Below, in pieces: positions 2,299 to 16,954 of a stretch of DNA of 64,000 bases. The translations under genes were made by a program, and so were the position numbers. Location of the stretch: the NCBI GenBank assembly GCA_024236215.1, contig JACKKX010000001.1:857501-921500 (forward strand). Reading direction: 5' to 3'. Under the pieces are notes generated by a model. That model was not told where the DNA came from, did not search any database, and was given only the letters and a program-made list of their open reading frames with translations. The stretch's first letter is position 1, and each line of letters begins with the position of its first letter. Origin of the DNA: Novosphingobium sp. Lineage in GTDB: Bacteria > Pseudomonadota > Alphaproteobacteria > Sphingomonadales > Sphingomonadaceae.

Positions 2299-5200
2299 AT
2301 GATCGAGAAACTCCTCGACGCGGCGATCCGCTTCCGCTGGGGTGTGGTTGTCGCCACGCTCATCGTTGCCGCCTTCGGTGCGTTCCAGCTGCTCAAGCTG
2401 CCGATCGACGCGGTGCCCGATATCACCAACAAGCAGGTGCAGATCAACACGGTCGCGCCCGCGCTCGGGCCGCTCGACATGGAGCGGCTCGTCACCTTTC
2501 CGGTCGAAACCGCGATGGCGGGGATACCGGGGCTGGAAAGCTCGCGCTCGATCTCGCGCAACGGCTTCAGCCAGGTCACGGTAGTATTCGACGAAGGGGT
2601 CGATCTCTATTTCGCTCGCCAGCAGGTCGCCGAACGGCTGAACCAGGCCAAGGACAGTCTGCCGGCAGGCGTCGAGCCTTCGATGGGGCCGGTCACCACC
2701 GGCCTCGGTGAAGTGCTGATGTATGTCGTCGATTTCGCACCCGTGGGGACCAGGGCCGCGCCCAGGATCGCCGGGCGACCCGGTTTCCAGCCCGATGGCA
2801 GCTATCTGACCGTCGATGGCGAAACATTGACCGACGATGTCGCCAAGCTCGGCTACCTGCGCACTGTGCAGGACTGGATGATCCGTCCGCAATTGAAGAC
2901 CGTGAAAGGCGTCGCCGGGATCGACAGCATCGGCGGCTACGAAAAGCAGCTGGTGGTCGAGCCCGATGTCGCCAAGCTCGCAAGCTACGGGATTTCCTTC
3001 TCCGAACTCGCCGAAGCGCTCGAAAAGGCCAACATCTCGGTCGGTGCGAACTTCATCCAGCGTGGCGGCGAGGCGTTCCTCGTCCGTGCGGACGGCCGCA
3101 TTCACACCATCGACGAGATCGGCCGGGCGGCGGTCGCAACGCGCGGCGGTGTGCCCGTCTCGGTGCGCGATGTCGCGGCAGTGCGGGTCGGCGGCGATCT
3201 TCGCACCGGGGCGGCGTCGAAGAATGGCAAGGAAGTGGTGATCGGCACCGCGCTGATGATTGCAGGCGGCAACAGCCGGATCGTCGCCGATGCGGTTTCT
3301 GAGCAACTGTCCACTGTCGCCAAATCGTTACCGCCCGGGATCGTCGTCACGCCGGTGCTCAATCGCTCCACCCTGGTCAACTCGACCATCGCGACCGTCG
3401 AGAAGAACCTCGTCGAGGGTGCGCTGCTCGTCATCGTCGTGCTGTTCTGGTTGCTCGGCAACATCCGCGCGGCGGTGATCGCCACGCTGGTCATCCCTCT
3501 GTCATTCCTGATGATGGCGACGGGCATGAACGCCACGGGCACGTCGGGCAATCTGATGAGCCTTGGCGCTCTCGACTTCGGGCTGATCGTCGATGGCTCG
3601 ATCATCATTATCGAGAACTGCCTGAGGCGACTCGCCGAGCGCCAGCATCACGAGGGCCGGTTGCTTGATCTGGGTGAACGACTGCACGAAGTGTTCGAGG
3701 CCGCCCGCGAGATGGTCCGCCCGACCATCTTCGGCCAGGCGATCATCTTCCTCGTCTTCGCGCCGCTGCTTACCTTCACCGGAGTCGAGGGCAAGATGTT
3801 CTCGCCGATGGCGATCACTGTCATGCTCGCGCTTGGCGGGGCCTTCATCGCCTCGCTGACCTTCGTTCCGGCAATGATCGCGCTGCTGATCCGCGGCAAG
3901 GTCGCCGAGAAGGAAGTCCGGGCGATCGCTTGGGCCAAGGAGCGTTACATCCCGCTGCTGGGCAAGGCCGTAGCGCGGCCGTGGCCGTGGATCGGTGCGG
4001 GCGTCGGGGCCTTCGCGCTCGCGGGATTGGTGTTCCTGATGCTCGGGCGCGAATTCATCCCGCAGCTCAATGAGGGCAATCTGGCGATGCAGGCGCTGCG
4101 CATCCCTTCGACCTCACTGGCGCAGTCGAAGACCCTGCAGATGGATATCGAGCGCAAGCTCTCGGCGATGCCCGAGGTCCAGCTCGTGTTCTCCAAGACC
4201 GGCACCGCCGAGGTCGCGACCGACCCGATGCCGCCGAACGCTTCCGATTCGTTCATCATCCTGAAGCCCAAGGATCAATGGCCCGATCCGGGCGCGACCA
4301 AGGAAGAGGTCATCGAGGCCATCGAAAAGCGTCTTGCCGCCACGGTGGGTAGCGCGTTCGAGATTAGCCAGCCGATCCAGCTGCGCTTCAACGAGCTGAT
4401 CGCAGGGGTACGCGGCGACATCGCAATCAAGCTCTACGGTGACGATCTCACCCGCATGGGCGGGGTGGCACAGCAGGTCGCGAGTGTGCTGCGAACCGTG
4501 CCGGGCGCAGCCGACGTCAAGGTTGAGCAGACCGAAGGCTTCCCGACACTCGACGTGCAGTTCGACCGCGACGCCATCGCCCGCTACGGCCTGTCGCTGA
4601 AGGACGTGACCGATACCGTCGCCGCGGCACTCGGTGGGCGCGAGGCCGGAATCGTGTTCGAGGGCGACCGGCGCTTCGACATTGTAGTGCGCCTGCCCGG
4701 AGCTATTCGCGACGATCTTGGTGCCGTGGCGGCGCTCCCGGTAATGCTGCCCAACGACGGCGACCGAGCCTCGATACCACTCGGAGCGCTGGCAAGGTTC
4801 ACCTTCTCCGAAGGTTTGAATCAGGTCAGCCGCGACAACGGCAAGCGCCGTGTGGTGGTGCAGGCCAATGTCCGCGGCAACGATCTCGGCAGCTTCATCA
4901 CCGAAGCTCAGGCCAAGGTCGGGGAGCAGGTGAAGATGCCGCCTGGCACCTTCATAGAATGGGGCGGGCAGTTCGAAAACCTCCAAGCCGCCTCGCGGCG
5001 GCTGACCATCGTCATCCCGCTGGTTTTCGCCGCCATCTTCGGCATCCTGTTCATGGCGTTGAAGGGCGTGCGTCCGGCCATCGCGGTCTATTCGGCGATC
5101 CCGCTCGGTCTTGCGGGCGGTGTGTTCGGTCTATTGCTCGCCGGACTGCCGTTTTCGGTTTCGGCGGCGGTCGGGTTTATCGTGCTCGCGGGCGTCGGCG

Positions 5201-7619: not shown

Positions 7620-8669
7620 TCAGCTCGTACATTCGAGGAAACGCCCAACATCCGTGCGGTGAAGCTGCGCCACAAGATCGAGGCCCAACCGGATCGGGCC
7701 ACGCCTTTGCAGGTCATCATTGAAGTCGCCCAGATGCGGCACCAGCGGAATGACCTCGATCCCGATTGGTTGTGCCCTCTGCGTCAATGTCGTCAGTGCC
7801 GCAGATCCAGCGGAATCATCGTCGCGAGCGACGTAGAGCCGCTTGAGCGCCTTCGGGAACTGGATGGCGGCAAGGTGGGCGGACGACGTGGCAGCGGCCA
7901 ATGGCATGCTGGGCAAAACCTCGCGCAATGAGAGCATGGTTTCGATGCCTTCGCCCGCGATCATGACATCAGCAGCAATGCCGAACCGTATGGCGTGTCC
8001 CAGTATATTTCCCATGGCCCGGCGCGGCGAGGCAACTGGGGCTTTCGTCAAGGTGCCCGAATCAATCCATGTCCGGTGAACACCGGTCGCATTGCCGTCC
8101 AGATCGGTGACCGTCGCAATCATGGCTGGCCATGCAGAGCGCGTGCCGGGCGCATCGTCTTTCGAGGGCCGGTAATAGCAGTGCGGATGGAACCGCAGCG
8201 GGTCGGTGCTCCACAAGGTCGTGATCCCACGGCGGCGAAGGTAGGTTTCCGCGACCGTGCCGTGCATGGGCTTGGATGCTGCGAACAATCGCTTTGCCGC
8301 CGCTGGCGATCCAGCGGGCACTTTGGCTTTGGGCCGAGTACCATCCCGATCCGAGTCCAGTGCCGGAATGGGCAGGCTCAAAAAGCGGCGGGCTTCATCG
8401 AGCGTATCGCGCAGCTGATGATGCCCCCGGCTGAGTGCGATGATGTCGAGCAGGTCACCGTGTTCGCCGGTGGCGGCGTCGGTCCATTTCCCGGCCGGTC
8501 CCTTCTCCATGTCGACGAGCCTGACATAAAGGCTGCGCCCCGGCGTATTGCGAACATCGCCGACCAGCCAGTAACGGCCTTCGCGATAGCCTTTGGCAAG
8601 GTAGTGACGGCACACCGCCTCGGCCTGCTGGCCAAGGCGGTGTGCGAGTTTGCTGGCGGAGTTTTCCAT
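7620..8669 (-). CDS. Toprim-domain protein (primase-like, plasmid/ICE type)
   Basis: A 349-residue protein of the kind encoded next to Strawberry-notch helicases on alphaproteobacterial plasmids and ICEs. The N-terminal third has a basic helical region. The centre ('AETYLRRRGI...LRFHPHCYY') matches the region preceding the Toprim domain in primase/TraC-like proteins. The Toprim domain has its acidic Glu in 'IAGEGIETMLSL' (near residue 241) and a DxD-type cluster 'ARDDDSAG' (near 281), the metal-binding positions of DnaG-type catalysis. No zinc-binding domain is evident, so primase activity is uncertain. It starts 50 bases after the interrupted helicase gene, in the same direction. Confidence 0.75.
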   Translation of the reverse strand: MENSASKLAHRLGQQAEAVCRHYLAKGYREGRYWLVGDVRNTPGRSLYVRLVDMEKGPAGKWTDAATGEHGDLLDIIALSRGHHQLRDTLDEARRFLSLPIPALDSDRDGTRPKAKVPAGSPAAAKRLFAASKPMHGTVAETYLRRRGITTLWSTDPLRFHPHCYYRPSKDDAPGTRSAWPAMIATVTDLDGNATGVHRTWIDSGTLTKAPVASPRRAMGNILGHAIRFGIAADVMIAGEGIETMLSLREVLPSMPLAAATSSAHLAAIQFPKALKRLYVARDDDSAGSAALTTLTQRAQPIGIEVIPLVPHLGDFNDDLQRRGPIRLGLDLVAQLHRTDVGRFLECTS

Positions 8670-8719
8670 GATGGCCTCTGATTATCTGTCGCCAAAATGC
8701 GAGTGGCAAATCGGCGGCG

Positions 8720-10600
8720 TCAGGCGGCTCTGGCGTTGGATTGGCGGTCGGAGACCTTCTGGATGGGGAAGCGTTCGATCAGTTTGGTGAGGATCTGCGG
8801 TCCGTCTGTCCCTGTCGGCACGAACAGGCGGAGCTTCCACGAGATGATTTCCGAGATCAGCCCCATGGCCTTCAGCCGCTCGACACCGAGATCGTTGAAC
8901 CCGACCAGTTCGACACGCGGCGTGCCCATCGAGCGGACGCGGGCCAGCACCTGTCCCTCGGCCAGATGCAGTGAGGCTTCCCCTGCCATCAGCATAGTCC
9001 ATGCCTGATCAGCAGAGAGTTTGGGCGCCTTGGCCCCAAGCGTTGCAGCCACCCATGCGGACGATACCCGCCGCCCGACGATGCGTTCGGCGTTATCGGC
9101 CTGCAGTCGGTAAACCCGCGAGGATTCGTTGGGCAGGCTTTTCCAGATCGGGAGAAGCAAGCCGGTCACGATGTGCAGCGAGCTCGTCACGAATTCAGGA
9201 ACATCGGCGAGCTCCGCATTCCAGGCCGTGGCAAACGCGGCTCGATCGGCTTGCTCCCAATGACTCTGGGCCATGGCGTCACGGGAGATGTTGGTTCGTT
9301 CCATTGGGCGGGTCAGCCGGACCCGCTTTTCGATGGTGCCATCGTCGAGCATGACACTGCGCGCGCCGGTCTGCACTGCGGCGCGGCCCGAGCGGCTGTT
9401 GACCAGCAGCATCGCGCCTGACTCGCCGGCAAAATCGAGCGCCCCCTCCAGCAATAGCGGCGCATTGCGATGCTTCTGCTCGACCGTCAGCAGGCGCGTT
9501 TCGGCCTGGGTGCCGGGATGGGTATAGATGGTCTGGCGGTCGGTGACGGTAAAGCTCTCCGCCACCAGCGTTTCCAGCCCCATTTCATAGGTGCCGCTCG
9601 CCATGGCACCCTCGATCCGGGTGGCCAGCAGGCCTTCGAACGCGGTGAACAGGATGTCCTGCATGTCAATGGTAAGGGCCAGCATCCGGTTGAGGAACGT
9701 GGTGATGGGCGGCAGTTCGTCGCGCAGCCCGCCATCCTGACCGTCGATCAGCGACAAACCCGTCGCGGCCTCGAACTGCCGCAGCGAGCAGCCTTCAACC
9801 TTGCCGCGCACGATCAACTGGTAGAGCTGGCGCAGGGCATCGCGGGCATAGTGCGATTCCAGATTGTCTTCGGGGCGGAACATGTTCTGGCCACCGGTCT
9901 GGCGCTGGCCGCGAGTGATTGCGCCGAGCGTGTCTAGTCGCCGGGCGATCGTCGAGATGAAGCGCTTCTGCGCCTTCACATTGGTCGTCACGGGACGAAA
10001 CAGCGGCGGCTGCGCCTGGTTGGTGCGGTTGGTCCGCCCGAAGCCCTGGATGGCGCTATCGGCCTTCCAGCCCGATTCCAGCAGATAGTGGACCCGCAAC
10101 CGCTGGTTCCGAGCATTGAGATCGGCATGATAAGACCTGCCCGTGCCGCCGGCGTCGGAGAAGACGAGTATCGGCTTGGCATCGTCCATAAAGGCCTGGG
10201 TCTCGCCAAGGTTAGCGGATGCAGGCCGGTTCTCGACGGCAAAGCGCGTGGTGCCATCGCCGCGCAGACGGGCCACGATGCGGCGTGAGCGGCCCGTCAC
10301 TTCCGCCACCATATCGGTTCCGAACCGCTGGACGATCTGGTCGAGTGCGCCAGGCACCGGAGGCAAGCTAGCGAGCTTTTCGATCATGCGGTCACGCCGC
10401 TCGACAGCGTCGCGCGATTCCACCGGCTGCCCGTCGTCGGAAAAAACGGGCCGCGAGCTGAGATTGCCCTCTCCGTCAGAGAAGGGTTCGTAGAGCTGGA
10501 CGGGAAAGCTGTGCGCCAGATAGTCGAGCACATATTCTTTGCAGTCGCAGTTTATGTCGAGCGTGGCGGCGCGAGGCGCAGGTTTCCTTCGGTTTTCCAT
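8720..10600 (-). CDS. Strawberry-notch helicase, C-terminal half, severed by the RIT element and given a new start
   Basis: This is the downstream half of the gene that begins at 16792. Residues from about 25 onward continue the helicase. 'AIQGFGRTNRTNQAQPP' near residue 190 is helicase motif VI with its arginine finger, and the Strawberry-notch C-terminal domain follows. The first 24 residues (MENRRKPAPRAATLDINCDC-KEYV) are not native: they are encoded by the left terminal repeat of the RIT element and fuse in frame to 'LDYLAHSF'. GGAG in the repeat sits seven bases before the ATG, so translation is plausible. This half lacks the Walker motifs and could act only together with the other half. 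It could equally be a dead gene fragment. Confidence 0.85.
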   Translation of the reverse strand: MENRRKPAPRAATLDINCDCKEYVLDYLAHSFPVQLYEPFSDGEGNLSSRPVFSDDGQPVESRDAVERRDRMIEKLASLPPVPGALDQIVQRFGTDMVAEVTGRSRRIVARLRGDGTTRFAVENRPASANLGETQAFMDDAKPILVFSDAGGTGRSYHADLNARNQRLRVHYLLESGWKADSAIQGFGRTNRTNQAQPPLFRPVTTNVKAQKRFISTIARRLDTLGAITRGQRQTGGQNMFRPEDNLESHYARDALRQLYQLIVRGKVEGCSLRQFEAATGLSLIDGQDGGLRDELPPITTFLNRMLALTIDMQDILFTAFEGLLATRIEGAMASGTYEMGLETLVAESFTVTDRQTIYTHPGTQAETRLLTVEQKHRNAPLLLEGALDFAGESGAMLLVNSRSGRAAVQTGARSVMLDDGTIEKRVRLTRPMERTNISRDAMAQSHWEQADRAAFATAWNAELADVPEFVTSSLHIVTGLLLPIWKSLPNESSRVYRLQADNAERIVGRRVSSAWVAATLGAKAPKLSADQAWTMLMAGEASLHLAEGQVLARVRSMGTPRVELVGFNDLGVERLKAMGLISEIISWKLRLFVPTGTDGPQILTKLIERFPIQKVSDRQSNARAA

Positions 10601-10615
10601 GATTTCACTCCAGAT
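10529..10615 (-). repeat. Left terminal inverted repeat of the RIT element
   Basis: Reading outward on the minus strand from 10615, ATCTGGAGTGAAATCATGG begins an 87-base repeat that matches 14148-14234 in opposite orientation, with only four differences that I count. It includes a Shine-Dalgarno GGAG, an ATG and 24 open codons leading into the interrupted helicase gene. The last nine bases, GAATATGTG, may be native target sequence that happens to resemble the element's own end (GAATACGTG on the right). Confidence 0.9.
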
Positions 10616-10649
10616 ATTATGAGGGTTAGAGAGAGTGTTCGGAGACGGG

Positions 10650-11654
10650 TCAGGCCCGCCTTCGAACGTCAGTGAGCATTGTGATCAAGGCGTCGGAAGG
10701 CGGCTTGAAGCGCCCCGGCTTGATCGCAGGGGCACCGTGGGCTGCGAGAATCTGCAGCTTCTCTTCGGGATCGGCGCGCAAGTAGGTCTCGGTGCTCTGG
10801 ATACTGGCGTGGCCGAGCCATAATGCGACCTTGCGAATGTCCCCCGTCGCCGCGAGCGTGTGCATCGCGCAAGAATGACGAAGCACGTGGGGTGTGACGC
10901 GCTTCCCAAGGATCGACGGCTGCTTCGTCGCTGCCGTCTTGACGTGCTCGGCCAATCGGAACGCAAATCCGTCGCGGGTCATCGGCTGCCCGTTGGCATT
11001 GAGGAATATCTCGGTGACCTCAACTTGAGGCCGGATCGCAAGCCATGCGCGCAATGCGATCTGGGTCTCCTTCCACAGCGGCAGGACCCGTTCACGTCGC
11101 CCTTTGCCCATGATGTGCATGGTGGACAGGGAGCGGTCCGGGAAATCGCCCAGTTGCAGCGTTACGAGTTCCGACACCCTCAGTCCGCCAGCATAGGTAA
11201 GATGCAGCATCGCGCGATCACGGGTGCCGAGGCGTGTCCGGGGATCGGGTGTATCGAGCAAAGCCTTGATCTCGGCCCGGTCGAGATAATCGATCAGCGC
11301 CTTGTCTGTCTTCTTGGTCGGGATTGCTCTGACACGGAGTGCCTGATCGAGGCAGGCTGGAATCCGGTACTCGATGTATCGGAAGAAGGATCGGATCGCG
11401 GCGAGCCTGCCATTGCGGGTCCGCACGCAGCTGCCGCGGCCGATCTCGACATGATCGAGGAAGGCCATGATCATGTCTGTGTCGAGATCCTCAACCTCTA
11501 GATCGGTCGGTCGGCGCTTCAGCCGATCGGCAGCGAACTGGACGAGGAGGACGAAGCAGTTGGCATAGGTCTTCACCGTGTGCGGGCTGACGGCGCGTTC
11601 GCGCGGCAGATGTTCCCGCAGATATGCCGAGAGATGGGGAGCAAGCGCCGTCAT
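10650..11654 (-). CDS. Third tyrosine recombinase of the RIT element
   Basis: 334-residue phage-integrase-family recombinase. The N-terminal SAM-like core-binding domain spans about residues 1-105 ('LSAYLREHLP...VSPHTVKTY'). The catalytic domain has Arg in 'YAGGLRVSELV', Lys in 'MGKGRRERVLP', the HxxR box 'HVLRHSCAM', His in 'LWLGHASIQ' and the nucleophile Tyr in 'STETYLRAD'. All catalytic positions are present. Its ATG overlaps the stop of the second recombinase as ATGA. As the last of the trio it would be made only after translation of the upstream genes. XerC/D-like size and organisation. Confidence 0.88.
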   Translation of the reverse strand: MTALAPHLSAYLREHLPRERAVSPHTVKTYANCFVLLVQFAADRLKRRPTDLEVEDLDTDMIMAFLDHVEIGRGSCVRTRNGRLAAIRSFFRYIEYRIPACLDQALRVRAIPTKKTDKALIDYLDRAEIKALLDTPDPRTRLGTRDRAMLHLTYAGGLRVSELVTLQLGDFPDRSLSTMHIMGKGRRERVLPLWKETQIALRAWLAIRPQVEVTEIFLNANGQPMTRDGFAFRLAEHVKTAATKQPSILGKRVTPHVLRHSCAMHTLAATGDIRKVALWLGHASIQSTETYLRADPEEKLQILAAHGAPAIKPGRFKPPSDALITMLTDVRRRA

Positions 11655-12565
11655 GCCGCTTCTCCTTGAAAAAGTTGCTCGCTTGCAGCCGCAATGTCGC
11701 GCAGCAGCACTGGCGTGGCTTCGAGATACCAGTACGTGTTGGCGATCGACGCGTGCCCCAGGTAGACACTGAGACCGGCCATGTGGTGGGCAATGGCCTC
11801 CCTGTCACGCGGGCAGGACTCAAGCGAGCGAACAGCGAACGTATGTCGCAGATCGTGGAGTCGCATGCCTGCCGTACCGGTTGCTCCACGATATCCGAGA
11901 AGCCGGGCCAACCTGACGAACACGACGTGGGCGCGCACCTTGTGCGGCGCCCGCCCCCGGATAGTGACGAACAGGTCATTACACTTGGCCGGGTGCTTCG
12001 CGCGGATCGCAATGTAGGCTTCGAGTGCTTGGCGCGTCGATGGCTGCAAGGCGATCAGCCGCTGCTTGCCGAACTTGCCGTTGCGGACGACCAGCCCATC
12101 CTCGACCAGATCGTCGCACTGTAGGGCGAGAGCCTCGGAAATCCGGAGACCTGTCGCCGCGAGCAGGCCGAACAGGTAATGGTACGTGTATGGGCTAATC
12201 GTGCCATGGGGCGGAACGTTCAATGCCGCCGCCATGATCGCCCGCACCTGGTCCGGTTCGATGATGGTCGGAGTGGGACGTGGCCGCTTCCCCCGGCCGA
12301 AAACGCCGACAGGCGGGACTTCGTGGTCTGGGTCCTCGGCGTGAGCGAAAAGGCTGAAATTACGAGCAGCGTCGTACCTATGGCGAGCCACGTTCTGCGA
12401 GCTTGCCGTGTGGCACCAGTCGTAGATGCGCTGCACTCGGGTGTGCCGGTCACCGAAGCGTTCGGCGAAAGCGGCGTATTGGCGCAGCAGTCGTTCCTGT
12501 TCCGAGAACTTCCGCCCCAAGCCGCGATACAGCGAGACGTATCTGGCAATGTGCGTGTTCAGCAT
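11651..12565 (-). CDS. Second tyrosine recombinase of the RIT element
   Basis: About 304 residues. The catalytic domain has Arg in 'AATGLRISEAL', a likely Lys in 'RNGKFGKQR', the box 'HDLRHTFAV' and 'YLGHASIANTYWYLE' with the nucleophile Tyr. ATG 12565 is preferred over the ATG at 12583 because GGGAGAA lies just upstream of the former. Even so it overlaps the end of the first recombinase gene by seven bases. The C-terminal end overlaps the third gene as ATGA. Works with its two partners as a recombinase set; the individual roles in RIT transposition are not known to me. Confidence 0.86.
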   Translation of the reverse strand: MLNTHIARYVSLYRGLGRKFSEQERLLRQYAAFAERFGDRHTRVQRIYDWCHTASSQNVARHRYDAARNFSLFAHAEDPDHEVPPVGVFGRGKRPRPTPTIIEPDQVRAIMAAALNVPPHGTISPYTYHYLFGLLAATGLRISEALALQCDDLVEDGLVVRNGKFGKQRLIALQPSTRQALEAYIAIRAKHPAKCNDLFVTIRGRAPHKVRAHVVFVRLARLLGYRGATGTAGMRLHDLRHTFAVRSLESCPRDREAIAHHMAGLSVYLGHASIANTYWYLEATPVLLRDIAAASEQLFQGEAA

Positions 12566-14106
12566 GACGGTTCTCCCGGCCATGGCTGCGCGATCTTCAT
12601 GAGCATCGGCAGGTCGACCTTGGCGTAGATGGCGGTGGTCTCGGGCGAGCTGTGGCGCAGGATCGTTCCAACGGACTCCAGCCCTGCGCCCGCGCGCAGC
12701 AAGTTGGTGGCAAGCGAATGCCGGAAAATGTGCGATCCGGTCGGCACGCCTTCGATCCCGCCGCGCTCATGCGTGCGTGCAACGATGCCGGCGATCTCCG
12801 CCGATGAGCGGAACGAACGGAACGGGGCTTGCGCGCGCACGAACAGATGCGGATCGGCGGTCTTGGGACGCGCCGTGGCAATGTAGTCCAGGATCGCGTC
12901 ACCGACGTCCTGAGGCAATGGCAGGCGATCAGGCCGACGCGCCTTGCCCTTGACCGTCAGGTGGCCCGAGCGCCAGTCGATATCGTCGAGGTGCATATCC
13001 CGAATATCACCGGCACGCAGGCCAAGCCGGGCGAGCAGGAGAATGATGGCCTTGTCCCGAACTTCCACCGGGCGATCAGTCGGACATGCGCCGATGATCT
13101 GCTCGATCGTTGCCGGGTTGACGTGCCGGGGCAGCGTCGAAAGACGGTAGCGTTGCACTGATGGGATCGCGTGCAACAAAGCTGGACGGCAAACACCCTG
13201 CACGACCAGGAACCGAATATAGCTCCTCATTATCGTGACGAGCAGTGATGCAGAACCCGGCGTCTCCTTGCTTCGTTGTTGAAACGCACGCCTGAGGACG
13301 GCTGCATCCCATTGTGAAGGGTCGCCGAGCATAGGCATGAGCCGCCTGATATCGGCCCGGTAGCGCCGGATCGTCTCATCGGTCGCGCCGCGGTGTTGCT
13401 TGAGCCATGCCAGATATGCCGCCATGTGCGGGTCGTCATCCGACACCGGTTCGACTGAAGGGATGACACCCCGGCCGCGCAAGAACTCGACGAAGTGCCG
13501 AGCGCCACGCCGCCGCCGCTTCGCGCCCGAGGCGACGAGCTTGCCCCGCTTGCGCCAGACCGGACAGCGGCAACCATGCGCCGCGTACTGGTCGAGGATC
13601 GCGTCATCGACATCGGCCCACGACTGCCGCTTGATGCGAAGCCAAGCCACAATATGCTCGGCTTCCGACCGGTAGCCCTGTGCCACTCCAGGGGCGAGTT
13701 GCAGGCTGTCGATTGCATCGGAGTAGTCGGTGAGGTGACGGGGGAGATCGTCGATCCCATCGTCGACTTCGATATACCCTTGATCTTCGAGGAACCGGAC
13801 AAAGCGCCGGACCCGCGCAGCCTGATCAGTCTTATAGGCGGCTTGCTGAGCCGAGTATCCGTGGCACCGACAACGGTGCTTCTCGAACCGTCGGACGACT
13901 TGATCGCCGAGCGTACTGACCGGGATGGCATGCACATCCAGCCAATGCAGGAAATGACGGATCGCTGCACTGTACAGGATCGAACAGGCCGCTTCCTCCT
14001 TGACCCACAGAGAGGAGAGGAAGGCGTTGAATAGGGCATCTGAGCTCGGCGGATCTTCGATCCGGAGCTGTGCCGGACAAAACAGCTCTGATGATCTTGT
14101 TCTCAT
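12559..14106 (-). CDS. First (large) tyrosine recombinase of the RIT element
   Basis: 515 residues, longer than a typical integrase. The N-terminal extension of about 200 residues contains a Cys/His-containing segment ('EKHRCRCHGYS', then 'AAHGCRCPVWRKRGK') that may bind metal. The core-binding domain follows ('MAAYLAWLKQHRGATDETIRRY'). The catalytic domain shows Arg in 'LGLRAGDIRD', Lys in 'VKGKARRPD', 'HIFRHSLAT', 'LRHSSPETTAIY' with the nucleophile Tyr. It starts 41 bases inside the right terminal repeat, just after a hairpin at 14110-14141. The paired CxC motifs are a feature worth noting. Confidence 0.87.
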   Translation of the reverse strand: MRTRSSELFCPAQLRIEDPPSSDALFNAFLSSLWVKEEAACSILYSAAIRHFLHWLDVHAIPVSTLGDQVVRRFEKHRCRCHGYSAQQAAYKTDQAARVRRFVRFLEDQGYIEVDDGIDDLPRHLTDYSDAIDSLQLAPGVAQGYRSEAEHIVAWLRIKRQSWADVDDAILDQYAAHGCRCPVWRKRGKLVASGAKRRRRGARHFVEFLRGRGVIPSVEPVSDDDPHMAAYLAWLKQHRGATDETIRRYRADIRRLMPMLGDPSQWDAAVLRRAFQQRSKETPGSASLLVTIMRSYIRFLVVQGVCRPALLHAIPSVQRYRLSTLPRHVNPATIEQIIGACPTDRPVEVRDKAIILLLARLGLRAGDIRDMHLDDIDWRSGHLTVKGKARRPDRLPLPQDVGDAILDYIATARPKTADPHLFVRAQAPFRSFRSSAEIAGIVARTHERGGIEGVPTGSHIFRHSLATNLLRAGAGLESVGTILRHSSPETTAIYAKVDLPMLMKIAQPWPGEPSC

Positions 14107-14109
14107 GGT

Positions 14110-14141
14110 GGTTCCTTCGACTTGTTCAGGTCGAGGGAACC
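14110..14141. repeat. Hairpin between the ritA start and the right terminal repeat
   Basis: GGTTCCTTCGAC (14110-14121) pairs with GTCGAGGGAACC (14130-14141) with one mismatch across an eight-base spacer. It lies in the 5' leader of the first recombinase gene (minus strand) and immediately inside the terminal repeat. It could be a recombinase or repressor binding site, or an RNA hairpin masking the start region. Confidence 0.6.
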
Positions 14142-14147
14142 GTAATT

Positions 14148-14234
14148 ATCTGGAGTGAAATCATGGAAAACCGAAGGAAACCTGCGCCTCCTGCCGCCGC
14201 GCTCGACATAAACTGCGACTGCAAAGAATACGTG
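14148..14234 (+). repeat. Right terminal inverted repeat of the RIT element
   Basis: Inverted copy of 10529-10615, starting ATCTGGAGTGAAATCATGG and ending GAATACGTG. It differs from the left copy at four positions that I count, three in the central GC-rich part and one near the outer end. Like the left copy it holds an outward GGAG-ATG start. Confidence 0.9.
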
Positions 14235-14237
14235 TAA
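14163..14237 (+). CDS. 24-codon outward-reading frame carried by the RIT right end (candidate)
   Basis: ATG 14163 follows GGAG at a seven-base spacing and opens a 24-residue frame, MENRRKPAPPAAALDINCDC plus KEYV, that ends at TAA inside the adjacent palindrome. The same frame on the left end is fused to the helicase C-terminal half. Only one codon change alters class (Arg to Pro), and the rest is nearly identical, so the frame is kept in both repeats. It may be a genuine translated leader or simply a conserved recombination sequence that happens to be open. Confidence 0.4.
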   Translation: MENRRKPAPPAAALDINCDCKEYV

Positions 14238-14254
14238 TGTTGAGCTCAACATTA
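14235..14254. repeat. Perfect 20-bp palindrome at the right RIT junction
   Basis: TAATGTTGAG followed directly by its reverse complement CTCAACATTA, between the right terminal repeat and native helicase sequence. No copy exists at the left junction. It supplies the stop codons on both strands: TAA for the outward frame and TAA for the truncated helicase. It could be part of the element's excised-circle junction, the target site, or a remnant of an earlier insertion. Confidence 0.8.
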
Positions 14255-16792
14255 GATATATTCCCGCGGGGTGATGTCGACCTGGATATCGTCCCACTCA
14301 TCGGTCGGAATGTCAGCTAGGCGCCTCTCCATCAGTGCTTCGCCAGTCGAGACGATCTGGATGACGGCGGCATGGCCCGCCGCCAGATCCGCATCGACCC
14401 TGGCGATCAGTGTCGGCGTCTGCATCGCGGTGATCAGGTGGTTGAAGAAACGCTGCTTGGCGCTCTCGAAGGCCGAACGCGCGGCAGACTTGGCCTGGGA
14501 GTTGAGGTTGCCGTTGGTGAGCCCGAGCGCCTCGTCGAGATTGCAATGGATAACCTGGAATGCGGCGGCATAGGCATTGTAGATGCGGGTCTGCTCGTCG
14601 GTCAGGGCATGTTCGACCATTTCATACTCGACGCCGTCGAATGACAGCGAGCGTGCCGCATAGAGGCCGAGCGCCTTCAGGTCGCGGGCGAGCACTTCCA
14701 TCGCCGCCACGCCGCCGTCCTCGATCGCCGCGATGAATTCGGTCCGGGTGGCAAACGGGAAATCCTCGCCGCCCCACAGGCCGAGCCGCTGGGCATAGGC
14801 GAGATTCTGCACCGTGGTCGCGCCAGTCGCCGAGACATAGACCACGCGGGCACCGGGAAGCGCGTGCTGCAATCGGAGGCCTGCACGGCCCTGCTGAGAC
14901 GGCGCCTGCTCGCCCCGGCCGCCTTTGCCACCCGCCGCGTTTGCCATGGCATGGGCTTCGTCGAACACGATCAGCCCATCGAAATCAGCCCCCAACCAGT
15001 CGACAATCTGCTGAACACGGCTGACCTTATCCCCCCGATCCTGCGAGCGCAGCGTCGCATAGGTGGTGAACAGGATGCCCTCCCCCAGCTTGATCGAGCT
15101 GCCCTGCTTGAAGCGCGACAGCGGTGTGACCAGCAAGCGTTCCTGGCCCAGGGCTGCCCAATCGCGCTGTGCATCTTCGAGCAGTCGGTCCGACACCGAG
15201 ATCCACACGGCGCGTCGGCGGCCTTTGAGCCAGTTGTCGAGGATGATGCCAGCGACCTGTCGGCCTTTGCCTGCTCCGGTGCCATCGCCCAGGAACCAGC
15301 CTCGCCGGAACTGGACGGCGGCTTCGGCATCGTCGGGCGCAGCCTCGATCCCGTCCCATGTCGCATCGACGGCCCATGCGCCCGACAGAAAGCCGGAATG
15401 CGCTTCACCGGCATAGATCACTGATTCCAGTTGGGCATCGGACAGCATCGCCTCGCTGACAACCGATGTCGGCAGGTGCGGACGATAGCTCGGCTTGGGC
15501 GGCGCGACCGAGGCCATCGCGGCCGATTGCACCAGCGCGGTCGGATGGGAATGCGCACCTATGATGCTGAGAGACTGGAGCGAATATGGCTCATAGATCG
15601 CATCGGTTAGCTTGTCGGCCTGCTCCGGCGCCCAATCCTTGACCGTATAGCCGAGTTCGTGAGCCTCGGTCGGCGTGTTGATCCGTGCCGACATCGAAGG
15701 ACGCGGGCTTTCTGCGGGTGCCTCTTTTTTAGGCAACTGCCGGATGCTCGATATTGACGCGCCGCCACAGGTTGCGCCGGACACTTCGAGGTGTGGTGAG
15801 ACATGCTCCGTGACCCAAGCGAGCAGCTTGGCCGTATCCGGCGCTGTGCCGGGTGATGCCGGAAACAGGGTTGGATCGTTTGCGGGAATGCGGTCGATCA
15901 CGGTCAGTCGGGTCGCAACCGAGGTGCCGTGCTTAGTATAGGCCCGGCCGTCGATGGCGGCGCTGAACACCACGCGGCCGCGCTCCTGCAGCTTGATGAA
16001 CGCATCGCGCCAGGCGGGCATCTCCGGGCCGAAACCTGCACCGGTGATGGCGACGAGGCGGCCACCCTCGACGAGCCGGGCCAACGCCGATGACAGATGG
16101 CGAAGTGCCGCATCCTTCATCGTATGATCGACATGGGCCATCGCGGAGAACGGCGGGTTCATCAGTACGACGCTGGGACGAATGGCAGCGGCGAGATAAT
16201 CATCGATCTGCGCCGCGTCGTGCCGCGTGACTGCCACCCCTGCGAACAGGCGTTCGAGCAGCTCGGCGCGCGTGTCGGCGAATTCGTTGAGCACCAGCGA
16301 TGCACCGGCCCGTTCCGCGTGGATCGCCAAGAGCCCTGTTCCCGCTGAGGGTTCGAGCACCACATCGGCAGGCGTGATGGCGGCGGCAACGGCAGCGACC
16401 GTGCCGAGGCCGACCGGCGTGCTGAACTGCTGGAGAGCCTGACCGCTCTGCGAGCGGCGGGTATGCGTGGGGAACAATCGAGTGATCTTCTCGATCATTG
16501 CCAACAACGTCGCCGGATTCGCCGAATGGCGGGCGAGCGCTGGTCCGAACTTGCGCAGGAACAGGATCTGCGCGACCTCGCAGGCCTCATAGGCGGTCTT
16601 CCAGTCCCAGCGCCCCTCGGCGTCCGAACCGCCGAAGGCGGATTCCATCGCGGACCGCAACGAGGCAGCATCGATGGCAACACCGCGCTCAAGCTGGGGA
16701 AGGATCAGGCCGGCAGCAGCGATGATTGCGTCGGCGGCGGCAGGAACGGTCGCTACGGCGAGCGCAGGCGACGGGGATGCAGAAGTGGTCAT
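14252..16792 (-). CDS. Methyltransferase/Strawberry-notch helicase fusion, N-terminal part, truncated by the RIT element
   Basis: 846 residues remain of a protein normally well over 1300. An N-terminal helical part leads into a class I SAM methyltransferase: motif I 'EPSAGTGLLA' near residue 145, and motif IV NPPF near 211, typical of adenine-N6 methylation. The helicase part then has Walker A 'GDGTGAGKGR' near 500, DEAH near 607 and motif III 'SATGA' near 655. The frame ends abruptly at 'DITPREYI' in the palindrome beside the RIT element, so RecA lobe 2 is missing and lies at 8720-10600. The methyltransferase could still fold. Start ATG 16792 was chosen over upstream in-frame codons because the upstream sequence is leader-like. 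Architecture recalls phage P1 DarB, an antirestriction protein. Confidence 0.87.
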   Translation of the reverse strand: MTTSASPSPALAVATVPAAADAIIAAAGLILPQLERGVAIDAASLRSAMESAFGGSDAEGRWDWKTAYEACEVAQILFLRKFGPALARHSANPATLLAMIEKITRLFPTHTRRSQSGQALQQFSTPVGLGTVAAVAAAITPADVVLEPSAGTGLLAIHAERAGASLVLNEFADTRAELLERLFAGVAVTRHDAAQIDDYLAAAIRPSVVLMNPPFSAMAHVDHTMKDAALRHLSSALARLVEGGRLVAITGAGFGPEMPAWRDAFIKLQERGRVVFSAAIDGRAYTKHGTSVATRLTVIDRIPANDPTLFPASPGTAPDTAKLLAWVTEHVSPHLEVSGATCGGASISSIRQLPKKEAPAESPRPSMSARINTPTEAHELGYTVKDWAPEQADKLTDAIYEPYSLQSLSIIGAHSHPTALVQSAAMASVAPPKPSYRPHLPTSVVSEAMLSDAQLESVIYAGEAHSGFLSGAWAVDATWDGIEAAPDDAEAAVQFRRGWFLGDGTGAGKGRQVAGIILDNWLKGRRRAVWISVSDRLLEDAQRDWAALGQERLLVTPLSRFKQGSSIKLGEGILFTTYATLRSQDRGDKVSRVQQIVDWLGADFDGLIVFDEAHAMANAAGGKGGRGEQAPSQQGRAGLRLQHALPGARVVYVSATGATTVQNLAYAQRLGLWGGEDFPFATRTEFIAAIEDGGVAAMEVLARDLKALGLYAARSLSFDGVEYEMVEHALTDEQTRIYNAYAAAFQVIHCNLDEALGLTNGNLNSQAKSAARSAFESAKQRFFNHLITAMQTPTLIARVDADLAAGHAAVIQIVSTGEALMERRLADIPTDEWDDIQVDITPREYI

Positions 16793-16917
16793 GGAAAGAC
16801 TCCGGGAGAGCAGGAAGCGGAAACCCGCGCGGCTCTCTCTCACCGCCGCAGGCTCGCCCTTCCCGGGCACACCTCTTGCTCTCGCCGCGTTCGCAGCGCG
16901 GACGCGGATCGGCGCAA

Positions 16918-16954
16918 TGAAAATGCCCGCCACTGACCAGCAGTGGCGGGCATT
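16918..16954 (-). terminator. Rho-independent terminator upstream of the helicase gene
   Basis: A perfect 14-pair stem (AATGCCCGCCACTG / CAGTGGCGGGCATT, 16922-16954) with a five-base loop, followed on the minus strand by TTTTC. It ends transcription of the DUF7007-like gene and separates it from the helicase transcript. The stem is also symmetric enough to act on the plus strand, but the T-run is on the minus side. Confidence 0.8.

Follow-up and report, generated by a model that had tools for sequence, protein, structure and literature searches.

RIT elements, as far as the accessible parts of their descriptions go, consist of three adjacent and overlapping tyrosine-recombinase genes, ritA-ritB-ritC, in about 3.5 kb, with ends made up of an inverted repeat and a palindrome (PMC3414803, PMC8138268). 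The repeat is given there as 28-9 bp (PMC3414803, PMC8138268) or as 34 bp (PMC10214605), and RitA is described with two core-binding domains and RitC with an extra C-terminal helix (PMC8138268). RITs are known inside the genes of other mobile elements, such as a Tn6049-like transposase gene and the radC of Tn6054, and as of 2012 their mobility was still to be shown by experiment (PMC3414803, PMC8138268). The GInts have three successive genes for tyrosine recombinases or related proteins, and they carry four conserved genes (PMC10214605). Integrase-borne dusA islands, in the available portion of the account, interrupt a coding gene at one fixed position, substitute their own sequence for its 5' end and leave putative promoters (PMC4482086).

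The window, a 64,000-nucleotide stretch of a Novosphingobium genome, holds an element that shares with RITs, as they appear in the accessible text, the gene trio, the size, the inverted repeat with palindrome and the insertion inside a gene. It differs from those descriptions in having 88-bp repeats with an outward-reading start and leader, in its one fixed target gene and in its donation of a stop and a start. GInts and SEs are alike in their rows of tyrosine-recombinase genes, but they have other targets, and start donation is absent from the accessible part of their description (PMC10214605). A dusA island, on a similarly partial account, yields one protein with a replaced 5' end whose function may be restored, whereas here the cut is in mid-gene, leaves two ORFs and occurs with the element in either orientation; the window has two separate ORFs in place of the one continuous protein of the dusA or SXT type. 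SXT/R391 ICEs in prfC reportedly supply a new 5' end of their target, and phage 21 and e14 in icd are said to supply a new 3' end, so that both are cases of terminal replacement, unlike the gene splitting seen here. The coupling sequences of Tn916/Tn1545 are reportedly also about 6 bp next to the ends and vary with the previous target, Tn916 itself being said not to be specific for one gene; the hexamers described below, in contrast, still encode residues of the Strawberry-notch target. Among the matches listed, no open-access title or abstract beginning described a start-donating RIT end, a RIT in a Strawberry-notch gene, or a mid-gene split with donated stop and start in both orientations.

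On the minus strand the locus reads from the N-half of a Strawberry-notch methyltransferase-helicase gene (to 14255) through the RIT element to the C-half (from 10528; Table 1). The first-pass annotation had placed three recombinase genes with inverted ends between two halves of one Strawberry-notch protein, and the ORFs, repeats and domain matches put them where it said. AAA_34 is found in the N-half and Helicase_C_4 in the C-half, two domains that lie in one protein in uninterrupted relatives, and the halves are collinear with the intact gene of another genome of the genus (L077). They also align to two parts of the single intact proteins P0001 and P0002 at 67-69%. Each half is an open reading frame that has a start and a stop; the N-half ends in ...DITPREYI. 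A toprim-domain gene follows the C-half, as it also follows the intact gene in 3/3 annotated intact plasmid loci (L063, L064, L065; L066 and L067, the remaining two of the five, are unannotated). A PADLOC model, mad2, matches the N-half in its methyltransferase region, at residues 119-286 (E=2.8e-12).

Table 1. Coordinates in the window of the split gene, the element and its ends.
Feature	Position	Strand	Basis or remark
Downstream neighbour, DUF7146 + Toprim_3	7620..8669	-	domain matches
Native C-half: second RecA lobe (QGFGRTNRTNQ) and C-terminal region	8720..10528	-	PF13871 Helicase_C_4, E=2.1e-98
Left terminal inverted repeat, reading outward into the C-half	10529..10616	-	88 bp, 95% complementary to right repeat
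Crossover hexamer, C-half side, TATGTG (last two leader codons)	10529-10534	-	sequence reading
24-codon leader MENRRKPAPRAATLDINCDCKEYV, element-derived and reading in frame into the C-half	10529..10600	-	sequence reading
Shine-Dalgarno-like box TATCTGGAGTGAAATC, GGAG 7 nt before the ATG	10601..10616	-	sequence reading
Recombinase gene 3 (RitC position, 334 aa)	10650..11654	-	PF00589, PF02899
Recombinase gene 2 (RitB position, 310 aa)	11651..12583	-	PF00589
Recombinase gene 1 (RitA position, 515 aa)	12559..14106	-	PF00589
Right terminal inverted repeat; outward: Shine-Dalgarno-like box, ATG (14163), 24-codon leader, then TAA of the spacer	14147..14234	+	repeat search, reading
20-bp perfect palindrome TAATGTTGAGCTCAACATTA, part of the element	14235..14254	.	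N-half side only
N-half ORF	14252-16933 if the upstream GTG is the start	-	stops at TAA 14254-14252
Crossover hexamer, N-half side, TATATC (codons Y-I)	14255..14260	-	6-bp BLAST overlap
N-half: methyltransferase-like region (NPPF motif, by eye) and first RecA lobe	14255..16792	-	PF13872 AAA_34, E=7.7e-125

The genes it contains, its size and its ends identify the element as a RIT. Its three tyrosine-recombinase genes are adjacent, overlap and run in the same direction, each with a Phage_integrase match; at about 3.73 kb (3706 nt from repeat to repeat) it agrees with the RIT size of roughly 3.5 kb; and it has both the terminal inverted repeats and the palindrome. The domain search gave one SAM-like match in the first gene, at residues 230-302. 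The inverted ends had earlier been reported at 87 bp, which is right as to their presence and one short as to their length. That the element lies between the two halves also stands, but it is not confined to the stretch between the repeats, as the palindrome on the N-half side belongs to it as well. It is single-copy in its own genome, where the other matches are of repeat to repeat or to a short piece of a distant RIT. A scan of 10500-14300 for promoters and terminators gave numbers about as in shuffles (1 vs 0.7 and 3 vs 2.5). A second, distant RIT trio, with about 35-41% amino-acid identity, lies some 600 kb away in the same genome (L099, G000:C1:264000-273500).

The insertion had been called clean, and comparison of the two halves with L077 bears this out. 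The alignments have no gap column in 1806 bases of the C-half (85.3% DNA identity) or in 2400 bases of the N-half (84.5%), no residues are missing at the junction, and the C-half has 92% amino-acid identity with no gap at the site. In BLAST the alignments of the two flanks to this empty allele overlap by 6 bp. Around the site 103/120 nucleotides are identical between L077 and the window, and 117/120 both for L069 vs L044 and for L086 vs L043.

In the frame of the N-half, GAA-TAT-ATC is followed by TAA, with which the palindrome TAATGTTGAGCTCAACATTA begins. From the left repeat, in the outward direction, one reads TATCTGGAGTGAAATC, an ATG and 24 codons in all, and then the host's LDYLAHSF in frame; the right repeat carries the near-identical leader MENRRKPAPPAAALDINCDCKEYV, which there runs into TAA. 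The ORF at 8720-10600 is a chimera with its start inside the element. It had been read as the gene resuming at VLDYLAHSF, which holds for the C-half but not for the start, since the first 24 codons are element repeat: the native C-half continues as LDYLAHSF, and the codon before it belongs to the crossover hexamer. Leaving the leader aside, the native C-half has no in-frame ATG before codon 48, though there is a GTG at codon 36. We infer that the leader ATG is the real start of the C-half. The front half takes its stop from the element itself and, on this reading, the back half takes its start from there too, a feature that the copies examined share. Each repeat has the leader, and the palindrome opens with TAA whichever strand is read, so that an insertion in either direction provides both start and stop; whichever way the element lies, the spacer places TAA right after the N-half crossover hexamer. 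What this adds to the first-pass annotation is that the inverted repeats carry predicted translation signals.

The ends were surveyed in the window, in 40 further loci (20 from plasmid records and 20 stretches of genomes of the genus) and in 80 from a scan of a genome collection; the plasmid loci represent 20 of the 27 records with a match and the last set 80 of at least 119 stretches. A motif in leader codons 14-22 served to find the ends, and the counts cover those that have kept it. Some strains enter the end counts twice, as the plasmid and genus sets overlap with the genome collection. There were 167 ends, 13 of them without a usable flank; among the 154 left, again with some strains counted twice, 153 lie in Strawberry-notch genes (152 by BLAST, L183 by reading its translation). 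The sole end whose flank is not recognisably Strawberry-notch, at position 123 of L173, lies elsewhere or in a degraded site. The hosts are mostly named sphingomonads, with a few metagenome bins named otherwise, e.g. Reyranella and Hylemonella. Insertion hits one fixed pair of codons, located between the RecA lobes (in most cases PRE-NNNNNN-VDYL or the like), shows the 6-bp overlap and leaves the target's residues in place, and the hexamers adjoining the repeats encode YV, YI, AI, FL, YM and so on, as in Strawberry-notch targets. Relative to the host gene the trio is co-directional at 35 loci, opposed at 25 and mixed at 1 (61 loci). Homologues with the 3.7 kb between separate genes, which had been named as a finding that would speak against an insertion, do occur, because the same site has been hit repeatedly, and uninterrupted genes are found beside split ones.

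On this evidence we consider it probable, at roughly 60%, that these elements are a RIT lineage specialised on one site of Strawberry-notch methyltransferase-helicase genes, where it would split its target into two translatable genes. All 155 complete leaders (155/155) have the ATG at the same place and no stop, and run in frame into the C-half. The 16 nt of the Shine-Dalgarno-like stretch read TATCTGGAGTGAAATC at 125 of the 156 ends in which the stretch is present, and are close variants of it at the other 31. Over their first 22 codons the leaders comprise 37 distinct DNA sequences and 25 protein sequences, in families such as those that begin MENRRKPAPPAAT-, MTNRRNPAPPAAT-, MTKQRKSEPPAAP- or MSSSRKSAPACEP- and go on with LDINCDCKE, LEIMADCKE and the like. 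By parsimony, changes at the three codon positions number 33/19/42 (P=0.012, within-codon shuffling), and 29/16/35 for codons 2-13 alone (P=0.035), a third-position lean that gives modest support to a coding role.

The same leaders could also be read as a by-product. If the element were a plain site-specific disruptor that leaves the gene off, the outward ATG and leader would come from the recombination site or from an old capture of target sequence. Leader codons 14-22 are conserved, perhaps as the recombinase site, and do resemble a binding site. Against such an origin stand the ATG and open frame kept in 155/155 leaders, including elements about 72% identical to that of the window, and the third-position bias, and we regard plain disruption as unlikely, though a serious competitor. 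A specialised, gene-splitting lineage also fits the other side of the element. The N-sides, which were recognised using the spacer itself, end in or shortly after it in 72/72 cases; the TAA is immediate in 62/72, and in the other 10, which count against this reading, the spacer begins with TTA and a tail of 32-37 residues is added. At these 72 ends the spacer is of the TAATGTTGAGCTCAACATTA type in 43 and another palindrome or near-palindrome in 29. In L027, L058 and L059 the spacers are hybrids in which halves of two palindrome types are joined (TAATCTGGATCTCAACATTA, TAATGTTGAGATCCAGATTA), which suggests mixed ends.

A second, different RIT trio (about 334/451/410 aa) provides a comparison within the same gene, which it cuts 108 codons upstream of the first site. 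Start donation was found in none of the 6 loci read for this element (L025, L028, L053, L054, L055 and L058), and in all six an in-frame stop at its end directly precedes the following piece of the gene. A 108-codon piece is also found in L029, L030, L036, L040, L043, L050, L059 and L061. Since this second RIT has a stop and no start, an outward start is not a default feature of RIT ends, which again speaks against the leader being a mere by-product of disruption. These upstream cuts also weigh on the other side: 14 of the 67 unique N-halves are broken a second time, and with no donated start at the six loci read, some of the split genes would be dead and their product not always needed.

The element has entered this gene more than once. 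That of the window is 100.0% identical over 3703 nt to the one in L030, a locus in another genome of the genus, and 99.9% identical to that of pSfKp5.2, while the host C-halves agree by 55.5% and 55.1%; likewise two plasmids of Sphingobium sp. YBL2 (L058 and L059) have identical elements (100%) in C-halves of 58.9% identity. L029 and L050, conversely, have C-halves that are 100% identical and elements of 72.4% identity over 2545 nt. With identical elements in genes about 55% identical, and different (72%) elements in identical genes, the insertion is recurrent. On a tree built from the C-halves of 31 split and 25 intact rows, 8 changes of the split state are required, and well-supported branches force at least 7 gains or losses. 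That the window insertion is recent, as had been proposed, is probable given an element identical to that of L030 in so different a host gene. A young insertion favours plain disruption to the extent that intact halves then need no selection. Within the genus, 108/195 genomes have a Strawberry-notch match, and many among the matches listed are uninterrupted full-length genes.

Near-identical genes exist with and without the element (L044 and L047 vs L068-L070; L043 vs L086), and intact genes stand among split ones at about 99% amino-acid identity (for L047 vs L070, 7 nonsynonymous differences in 597 codons). Empty and occupied sites of this kind, which differ by the element alone, are what would be expected of a reversible switch, in which the gene worked only after precise excision. 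Such a switch would have no need of a donated start and stop, and the changes on the tree may reflect insertion and not excision; we therefore think it improbable.

Are the two halves of use to the host? The unique C-halves comprise 60 that are complete and 4 truncated ones (60/64 of those that can be judged are complete), together with 8 that reach the end of their contig; another 8 were duplicates. The 67 unique N-halves comprise 45 of at least 780 codons, the 14 cut again 108 codons upstream and 8 that run off the contig, with 5 more duplicates. It may be that a single half keeps a function, either the methyltransferase with the first lobe or the C-half as a competitor, and that the leader serves that product. 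The N-half does hold the mad2-like methyltransferase region together with lobe 1, and in some loci, e.g. L025, L050, L054 and L055, a complete C-half accompanies an N-half that is cut again. As a rule, however, neither half is incomplete, which makes this very improbable. Low dN/dS was rejected as evidence of selection on the halves: values for the C-half are low in split and intact pairs alike (0.04-0.17 and 0.07-0.14), and are uninformative because the elements move faster than the genes diverge. The AlphaFold2 model of leader and C-half is poor (mean pLDDT 66.5, pTM 0.33; residues 1-20 and most of 80-245 below pLDDT 50), a point in favour of plain disruption, and Foldseek with this poor model gave no match at E<=0.001. 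Where 700 nt or more of interior was available, no fossil split lacking recombinases was seen; at 48 ends the interior was shorter. L056 and L057 were considered as such fossils and ruled out, as an annotated IS256 transposase gene lies inside.

For a RIT lineage that splits its target into two translatable genes, the following course of events can be proposed. The hosts would mostly be sphingomonad plasmids and integrated islands. A circular form would bring the two repeats face to face across hexamer-palindrome-hexamer. Crossover between one hexamer and that of the target, at the fixed two codons between the RecA lobes, would leave the palindrome with the front half, and crossover at the other hexamer of the circle would give the opposite orientation; the target residues would stay in place. 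Such a circle would explain both orientations and the precise empty sites, and either orientation would work because the repeats match and the spacer is palindromic. The hexamers would derive from genes of this family that served as targets before, as their YV, YI, AI, FL and YM codons lead one to expect. In sequence, one side of the element ends the front half in frame inside the element, and the other puts the Shine-Dalgarno-like box, ATG and 24-codon leader ahead of the back half.

Both halves may then be made as separate proteins. The cut, between methyltransferase region plus RecA lobe 1 and RecA lobe 2, would be a natural place to divide a two-piece enzyme, and as it falls between domains the halves may reassemble. 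Two made halves would lower the cost of insertion, and the element could persist in a gene common to many conjugative elements. We suggest tentatively, at somewhat less than even odds, that terminal repeats and palindromic core have evolved into an orientation-independent kit that splits an obligatory target whose enzyme still works in two pieces, a DNA-level counterpart of a split intein, without the splicing. If both pieces are made, a selfish element would here disarm its own insertion through translation signals in its ends, and bacteria would have a clear route to gene fission. For RIT elements generally, a defined target, crossover hexamer and empty site would offer a directly testable transposition assay.

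In the annotated records the C-half is already listed as a gene, its origin passing without comment. The annotators start it at the leader ATG in one locus (L025), 72-75 nt upstream of this ATG in L051, L054, L055, L057 and L059, and inside the native C-half in L023, L026 and L058. In L032 (G095:C1:15686-28404) one element has an N-half at each of its ends, the two coming from different Strawberry-notch genes, as though a pair of split genes had recombined by way of the element. The element is longer, at about 5.12 kb, in L026, L039, L040, L042, L050, L052 and L053; in the four annotated plasmids among these there is an extra 1305-bp ORF on the opposite strand, adjoining ritC (WP_080993750.1 or WP_082737013.1).

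By eye, no comparable start-donating leader was seen in distant RITs at two loci, L091 and L096. Other RITs, at L091 6155-6478 and L093 4218-4541, appear from the translation to lie inside an IS66-type TnpB gene. At L096 (G014:C1:3549000-3559000) a distant RIT lies inside a gene which we take to resemble the DUF736 family, with 737-bp, 97% inverted repeats around 3579-4616 and 7654-8893. Each of these repeats carries a complete, uninterrupted gene of the same kind as the interrupted one, possibly another way of making good the damage of insertion.
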